Source: Streptococcus hillyeri | GTDB lineage: Bacteria; Bacillota; Bacilli; Lactobacillales; Streptococcaceae | DNA length: 64,000 bases | Reading direction: 5' to 3' | Assembly (NCBI RefSeq): GCF_003686955.1 | Contig: NZ_RCVM01000003.1 | Span: forward strand, 1 to 64,000 | Shown here: piece after piece, positions 1,331-1,471 of the stretch | How positions within the stretch are numbered: the first letter of the stretch is position 1 | Layout of the letters: the number at the start of each line of letters is the position of its first letter | The notes under the pieces: model-generated | The model's input: only the letters and a program-made list of their open reading frames with translations | Database searches by the model: none | Told to the model about the DNA's origin: nothing | Translations under genes and position numbers: made by a program

Positions 1331-1471
1331 GATTTTAAGATACAAAGGGACATTTCACTCTCGAAACATTCTAGAAAACTAGAAAATCTGACAAAGATGC
1401 TTGGCATCTGGAAAGAGTTTTCTAGGAATGTCGTCCCGTGTTCCATTTTATAAAAAATGGAACATTCCTTT
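1331..1471 (-). promoter_or_regulatory. Structured 5' leader of rmlB, shared with parC
   Basis: In the rmlC-rmlB gap, minus-strand RNA can form a perfect 11-bp hairpin (1439-1449 with 1454-1464). Immediately after it, CGGGAC (around 1433-1438) can pair with GTCCC (1351-1347). A small TTTC...GAAA hairpin lies just inside the second element, and the conserved tail TTTGTATCTT follows. The same parts in the same order precede parC (42341-42420), with different bases but kept pairing in the first stem. No normal Shine-Dalgarno precedes the start. This looks like a cis-regulatory RNA. I cannot say whether it belongs to a catalogued family. Confidence 0.6.

Follow-up and report, generated by a model that had tools for sequence, protein, structure and literature searches.

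In a 64,000-nt stretch of Streptococcus hillyeri DNA (the window), the leaders of rmlB and parC are, in our reading, two copies of one family of mobile palindromes of streptococci and some other Lactobacillales. Each copy lies between the Shine-Dalgarno (SD) sequence and the AUG of its gene, which would make the ribosome-binding site (RBS) a split one; we give this reading a probability of about 70%. The mechanism we propose starts from an element that would have inserted between SD and AUG. Its closing stem, with or without a further hairpin (P0), would loop out the insert, and the looped-out insert would put the SD back at a working distance from the AUG, so that essential genes would probably stay translatable. 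By analogy, it is the upstream GAAAGGA that ribosomes would use, by way of the folded stem; the inner domain of the element would serve its spreading, not the host gene. If this is true, a small mobile element has rebuilt the RBSs of many essential genes across streptococci, perhaps across the whole order, and offers a natural, replicated test of ribosomes bridging structure between SD and AUG.

The rmlB and parC leaders

A preliminary description, made from the sequence, had reported one structured leader before these two genes, and the resemblance is confirmed. Both leaders lie on the minus strand (Table 1) and hold, in the same order, GAAAGGAATGTTC, the P0 hairpin, GAACACGGGAC, TTTCG..GTGAAA, GTCCC and TTTGTATCTT. 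The first hairpin, said to stay paired through changed inner bases, forms in both minimum-energy (MFE) folds, with arms at 1463-1454/1449-1440 in rmlB and 42418-42410/42403-42395 in parC and with different inner pairs; the GGGAC/GTCCC stem is likewise present in both folds. The size difference, put at about 45 nt, is 49 nt when the core is counted from GAAC to ATCTT (107 vs 58 nt). The exact pattern GGAATGTTC-N-GAACACGGGAC occurs at just these two sites in the genome, and the reversed control pattern at none. The similarity of the two leaders is not chance, because a covariance model (R1) made from 33 other copies finds both in the 2.15-Mb genome. The rmlB leader has a better MFE than all 200 dinucleotide shuffles (z −3.9), and the folding of the parC leader is moderate (z −1.9, matched or bettered by 11 of the 200 shuffles).

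Table 1. Features of the two leaders, in window positions
Feature	Position	Strand	Evidence
rmlB Shine-Dalgarno GAAAGGA, 5' of element	1466..1472	-	sequence; anti-SD duplex energies
rmlB P0 hairpin GTTCCATTTT/AAAATGGAAC, overlapping the element's GAAC	1440..1463	-	MFE fold; P0 pairing probability 0.98
Mobile hairpin element, rmlB copy, 107 nt	1337..1443	-	R1 match, E 1.5e-16; R1 built without the rmlB copy
rmlB, dTDP-glucose 4,6-dehydratase	284..1330	-	TIGR01181 above cut-off
parC Shine-Dalgarno GAAAGGA, 5' of element	42421..42427	-	sequence; anti-SD energies
parC P0 hairpin GTTCAGTTA/TAACTGAAC	42395..42418	-	MFE fold
Mobile hairpin element, parC copy, 58 nt	42341..42398	-	R1 match, E 1.4e-11
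parC, topoisomerase IV subunit A	39884..42340	-	TIGR01061 above cut-off

Both copies belong to a subtype with a hairpin P3. The rmlB copy consists of the extension P1ext (GAAC/GUAUC), the closing stem P1 (GGGAC/GUCCC), a long P2 and P3, and ends 6 nt before the AUG at 1330. In the parC copy, P2 is shortened, most of it being lost, while P1ext, P1, a short P2a and P3 are retained, and the AUG (42340) adjoins the element without a gap.

Neither gene had been credited with a normal SD. This does not hold: a good GAAAGGA exists, 5' of the whole structure and not beside the AUG, and copies of the element would be a source of such wrong readings. For rmlB, the anti-SD duplex energy is −9.6 kcal/mol in the 50 nt upstream of the element vs +0.8 kcal/mol in the 20 nt immediately preceding the AUG; the corresponding values for parC are −10.3 and −7.4 kcal/mol. 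The parC leader is the least clear case: the folded part contains an extra GAAAGG, 14 nt ahead of the AUG, and the upstream GAAAGGA is predicted by folding to be mostly paired (unpaired 0.05). Possibly this GAAAGG is a direct, though folded, SD. Read on the opposite strand, the parC P0 hairpin forms a terminator-like site (42393-42420, +). The window also carries a tmRNA (35410-35756, −) and an L20 leader (57976-58100, −), both ordinary.

Fold and covariation

The element measures about 105-120 nt and is composed of P1 and its extension, the long hairpin P2 and, in one of two subtypes, P3. P1ext, GAAC/GUAUC with a bulged A, prolongs P1. The sequences of P1 vary while its pairing holds (GGGAC/GUCCC, GGGC/GCCC, GAGC/GCUC, GCCC/GGGC), and the internal loop of P2, AGAU/CCUA, is almost fixed. 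R1 was derived from alignment A2, whose 33 copies are mainly leader copies and include none from the window; there, 81 cells are changed on both sides of a pair vs 28 after shuffling. A larger alignment, A3, holds the best 150 of 167 matches in 146 distinct rows and was fitted to the R1 structure, which favours the counts for P1-P3 and not those for P1ext. It contains 1245 doubly changed cells vs 346 ± 22 in shuffles, both sides vary in 36 of 38 pairs, and the covariation score is 0.553, whereas shuffling gives 0.143 and sliding the partners never more than 0.088. The stem covariation on which the preliminary description had made a regulatory role depend is thus present. P1ext was absent from R1 and still covaries: among the 146 rows of A3, C-G has become U-A in 11, A-U has become G-C in 5 and A-U has become C-G in 23, and other genera show GAGC/GCAUC and GAGU/ACAUC. 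Of these rows, 44 leave the innermost pair of P1ext unformed, and none of the 146 has a compensatory change at its two outermost pairs. The element is conserved by its fold, not by its sequence, and this raises the question of what moves a 105-nt hairpin kept in such a way.

The AGAU/CCUA loop and the bulged A rank with the best-conserved unpaired positions, and the inner loop is near-fixed in full-length leader copies (51/51 and 50/51), both in a sample partly selected for the motif; this near-fixity could reflect a host function. It favours, together with the near-invariant bulge amid varying stems, a dispersed cis-regulatory RNA, riboswitch-like or protein-binding, whose inner domain would bind a ligand or protein and in which P0 versus P1/P1ext would switch many housekeeping genes together. 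The pairs of P1ext and P2c, which are somewhat more often intact in leader copies (p 0.003 and 0.0002, with each related copy counted on its own), point the same way; P1, no better kept there (p 0.27), points the other way. With the evidence from gene content, folding and reduced copies given below, we consider this reading unlikely.

Copies, spread and mobility

The count of two copies was far too low. A search of the S. hillyeri genome with R1 finds 24 copies at E ≤ 2.3e-6 (26 at E ≤ 1), which rules out a two-gene regulon of rmlB and parC. Sixteen of the 24 end 0-6 nt before a same-strand ATG, their genes being (by NCBIfam) scrB, nusA, groEL, hisS, prfA, dnaJ, dnaK, mutM, glmM, obgE, alaS, thrS, prmA, alr, rmlB and parC; the remaining eight are a tandem partner before prfA and seven copies with no start codon right after them. 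A signal common to rmlB and parC had been suggested. It is unsupported, because eight of the 24 copies do not directly precede a start codon, copies sit in rRNA spacers and arrays, and identical copies occur at unrelated loci; rmlB and parC account for 2 of the 24, and the downstream genes are functionally unrelated. Of the regulatory RNA then envisaged, what stands is a structured, covarying leader before start codons, without the specific shared signal. The other outcome foreseen, a mobile repeat, which was to make a regulatory role unlikely, is what the rRNA-spacer copies, the arrays and the identical copies at unrelated loci amount to, yet the positions of the copies are far from random. 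That the downstream genes share no pathway and that one third of the genome's own copies (8/24) lie elsewhere than directly before a start codon also tells against the cis-regulatory RNA described above.

In Rfam 15, a search of the whole window placed no family above its gathering score at either copy. For both leaders at E up to 10, the best match was rli24, on the opposite strand (20.2 bits, E 0.083, gathering score 100), and at 19 other loci of the genome that carry copies no match overlaps a copy. A known RNA family, which would have removed the novelty, is ruled out by these searches. T-box (RF00230) identity was also rejected: the sub-threshold matches (thrS 71.8 and alaS 66.6 vs 93 bits) are separate from the copies and upstream of them. 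At alaS and thrS (L134:153-314 and L135:1895-2104 (−)), a T-box-like leader is followed by the element between SD and AUG, two leader devices in series. Our literature search, which covered few subscription papers, found no description of this hairpin element. The family is apparently undescribed, in well-studied pathogens and dairy bacteria, and sequence-based repeat finders may miss it because its stems vary freely.

R1 matches occur in 277 of 284 Streptococcus genomes, in 82 of 117 genomes of the family Streptococcaceae (7 of 10 genera) and in 52 of 246 genomes of the order Lactobacillales. Nineteen of these 52 lie outside the family and match more weakly (E 5e-8 to 1e-4); in those copies that were read the same core is visible, some as tandem arrays. 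Because the genus, family and order scans scored no more than the 12, 31 and 15 best candidates of each genome, respectively, their copy numbers are lower bounds. With 150 candidates scored per genome, the matches at E ≤ 0.001 numbered 16 in S. pneumoniae, 12 in S. sanguinis, 23 in S. suis, 21 in S. gordonii, 8 in S. ferus, 14 in S. oralis, 11 in S. infantis, 33 in S. ratti, 21 in S. ovis, 3 in S. hyointestinalis and 139 in S. acidominimus, the last possibly a floor. By blastn against the genus, the parC leader matches 90 of 197 genomes and the rmlB leader 74 of 197; in the loci read from these searches, the element precedes parC, rmlB, purE, purN, speE, prmA, deoD and a PTS gene (purE, purN, speE, deoD and PTS named by reading translated starts, purE being also annotated in an S. 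agalactiae record). The 80 named loci were picked by a pattern including AAAAAGATA, CCTATTTT and GTATCTTA, which matched at least 119 stretches.

Several observations characterize the element as a small mobile palindromic repeat, MITE-like, which recurs as a discrete unit at many loci whose flanks are unrelated. First, S. acidominimus carries 100% identical copies of 104-107 nt at unrelated loci, with sharp ends; their common flank measures no more than 4-6 nt 5' of the element, where it ends in AATT, and 0-3 nt 3' of it. AATT or AACT directly precedes many copies. Second, there are tandem arrays, with up to 5 units and spacers of 8-9 nt in S. acidominimus, and 8 units with spacers of 9-16 nt in the genome G354; two lie at L168:4179-4738 (−), 5 units, and L403:3175-4143 (−), 8 units, the latter mixing two sequence types. 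Third, in rRNA operons the element stands between the tRNA-Ala and 23S genes in either orientation: sense in G113 (confirmed for L148) and in G172 (by tRNA and sequence), antisense in G023 and G051. No target duplication was visible by eye in 20 S. acidominimus copies, read without an exact empty site for comparison, and the leader loci compared did not include an exact empty/filled pair sharing its flanks.

Candidate carriers were rejected. An IS origin of copies with identical scores fell because the stretches examined are rRNA spacers, except for one alaS leader (L155). Phage or plasmid carriage was set aside as well: one query copy (from L047) had no match in a phage collection and hit a single record labelled as a plasmid, from Streptococcus agalactiae, which carries purD-purE-purK and has the element in front of purE; copies from three other genera had no match among plasmids. 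By eye, one IS3-like pair lies near the array in L403, and no local transposase was seen near the array in L407.

Integron attC sites and the ends of IS200/IS605 elements are hairpins recognised as single-stranded DNA. The structure studied here may likewise have been selected as single-stranded DNA, as the hairpin of a recombinase or HUH-type transposase, with RNA folding as a by-product. The covarying arms, the fixed bulge and loop, the lack of a visible target duplication, AATT/AACT directly 5' of many copies and the antisense copies in rRNA spacers all agree with this. It leaves unexplained, however, the placement between SD and AUG and the retention of the closing stem in reduced parC copies (see below), and no recombinase or HUH-type enzyme was seen by eye in two array regions with listed reading frames. 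We regard it as somewhat unlikely; it is compatible with the split RBS, and both may hold.

Known repeats offer partial parallels. REP sequences have a GTAG/CGTC tag and a RAYT gene, attC sites an integrase, and Rickettsia palindromic elements (RPE) a position inside coding sequence; like RPE, REP/BIME and attC, the present element is a mobile or repetitive palindrome tolerated through folding. EFAR of Enterococcus faecalis inserts into stem-loops. Complementarity of the flanks, as between the arms of a stem-loop, is short of significance for our element (z −1.7, 41 solitary non-leader copies), with L139 and L142 as strong single cases. At both (576-731 in each), the element forms the tip of an extended palindrome (AATATTTGAGA..CTAATT / AATTAGG..TCAAATATT), the arrangement that insertion into a hairpin would give, and an RF02894 (S35) match below threshold lies near the L139 element. 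A report that also names RPE, ERIC and BIME (PMC2267715) describes Efa-1 of E. faecalis as two neighbouring stem-loops spanning 163 bp. Compared by description only, EFAR/Efa-1 and our element are palindromic miniature elements of Lactobacillales with a conserved fold, and Efa-1 is possibly a cousin. For BOX, RUP and SPRITE, the available text of another source (PMC3049150) reports near absence outside S. pneumoniae/S. mitis (with BOX relatives in S. suis) and over-representation between convergent genes, and gives SPRITE as an 18-bp duplex with a U-rich tract. Our element is, like these, short, structured, dispersed, MITE-like and streptococcal; as far as those descriptions go, it is set apart by its presence in 277/284 Streptococcus genomes and in other genera, its conservation by structure and its enrichment between SD and AUG.

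In S. acidominimus, copies at L313, L314, L315, L319-L321, L331 and L332 lie inside a longer shared repeat. Their flanks agree over tens of bases and, 3' of the element, match exactly for as many as 176; the whole may be a composite mobile element.

Position between the SD and the AUG

Among 136 usable public named-locus copies, 35 end 0-6 nt before a same-strand ATG, and a further 16 are followed by a possible start at 13-20 nt. On the opposite side of the element, a start codon is found in 0 of 138. This count used 141 of the 167 matches, leaving out own-genome loci, L155 and two weak reverse-strand matches, and 136 of them have enough downstream sequence. Starts were called by frame length only, and the 136 copies are not independent, since related species contribute one gene repeatedly. 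A random-position control gave 580/2820, high since in-frame internal ATGs count, and the opposite side was used as control instead.

In every one of 84 distinct leader copies, the anti-SD pairs more strongly 5' of the element than within the 20 nt that lead up to the AUG (mean −11.1 vs −1.3 kcal/mol), and the result holds with 20-nt windows on both sides. This set excludes copies without an ATG near their end, L015 and L045 (repeats of the window copies), and L033, L054, L055, L058 and L074 (no suitable near start, or enlarged). The idea of a leader peptide encoded upstream was dropped, as inspection by eye showed no start that is conserved. In 22 'direct' leaders the SD adjoins the element, and the distance from SD to AUG through a closed P1ext is 7-11 nt. 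In 57 leaders, both window copies included, the SD lies 18-29 nt from the element, so bridging there needs P0 too; in leaders of the P0 type the gap holds the hairpin GTTCAGTTAG..CTAACTGAAC, whose 3' arm overlaps GAAC. By hand count, the 80 nt that separate SD and AUG linearly in the window's parC leader become 8 nt with the inner P0 and P1ext, or 14 nt with the full P0 and P1; in its rmlB leader, 135 nt become 14 or 20 nt.

There is a precedent for such spacing. In the accessible portion of PMC3014915, a hairpin between SD and AUG shortens the spacing of phage T4 genes 38 and 25 from 22 to 5 nt and from 27 to 11 nt, respectively. Our element resembles this arrangement in placing a hairpin between an upstream SD and a downstream AUG at a short folded distance, directly in the 22 leaders and with P0 in most of the other 62. 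Unlike the local hairpins of two phage genes, it is a mobile element of about 105-120 nt before many unrelated bacterial genes. Thus, it would work like a split RBS; it behaves like a small mobile palindrome and lies outside every family tested.

Folding energies are the main weakness of the exact geometry, not of looping-out as such. Nearest-neighbour folding gives P1 a probability of about 0.7 and P1ext 0.07 (direct leaders) or 0.00 (others); the SD is unpaired at 0.41 and 0.58, and the AUG at 0.46 and 0.51. Since the energies favour P0 together with P1, P1ext receives little folding weight and SD and AUG are about half paired, the bridging geometry rests on covariation, not on energy. Some folding results suit the cis-regulatory RNA instead: GAAC, common to P0 and P1ext, forms a switch-like overlap (paired within P0 at 0.88 across the 62 non-direct leaders), P1 has a probability near 0 in the groEL, thrS, hisS, mutM and glmM leaders, and in groEL, thrS and hisS P0 apparently also pairs with the 5' strand of P1. 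A mobile structured RNA could, in a related reading that we hold to be quite improbable, act as a translational switch, putting dozens of essential genes (chaperones, tRNA ligases, a topoisomerase, a release factor) under one P0 versus P1/P1ext decision through a protein, a ligand or temperature acting on the AGAU/CCUA loop.

Leader copies might, finally, be tolerated passengers of a purely parasitic repeat, with another start signal at the AUG and a fold that has no role there. The mobile behaviour, tandem arrays and rRNA-spacer copies are what such a repeat would show, and a moderate anti-SD match near the AUG exists in some leaders (18 of 84 have an energy of −4 kcal/mol or lower within the final 20 nt). 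Exact sense placement before unrelated genes, with an SD upstream at a fixed stem-closed distance, makes this very unlikely, as does the closing stem retained in reduced copies.

Those reduced copies came from surveys of parC and rmlB, each covering the 30 best-matching loci of 59 genomes. For parC, 10 loci are empty, 13 full, 2 enlarged and 5 reduced; nine of the ten empty sites have a purine-rich stretch near the AUG, and one is ambiguous. For rmlB, 24 loci are empty, each with GGAG or AGGA near the start. In five of the 20 element-bearing parC loci, the window's among them, a large part or the whole of the inner domain is gone, including most of P2, which speaks against the cis-regulatory RNA. 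All five retain GAAAGGA, the closing stem and the AUG, and the smallest consist of a bare P1 with a 3-6-nt loop. Judged from these sequences, the reductions fit selection on bridging and argue against an obligatory sensor function at parC. They may still be compatible with regulation elsewhere, for instance of groEL and thrS: upstream sequence there can, in predicted folds, pair with the 5' strand of P1.

A second dispersed structured leader sequence, at L355:1270-1490, L298:1798-1896 (−) and L337:1382-1479, matches RF02616 (SSRC8_2, Streptococcus sRNA 8) below its gathering score. In further relatives, similar sequence precedes rmlB and parC, and S. hillyeri has the sequence upstream of dnaK as well (L129:3892-3984, −); it looks like a repeat family, not a single sRNA.
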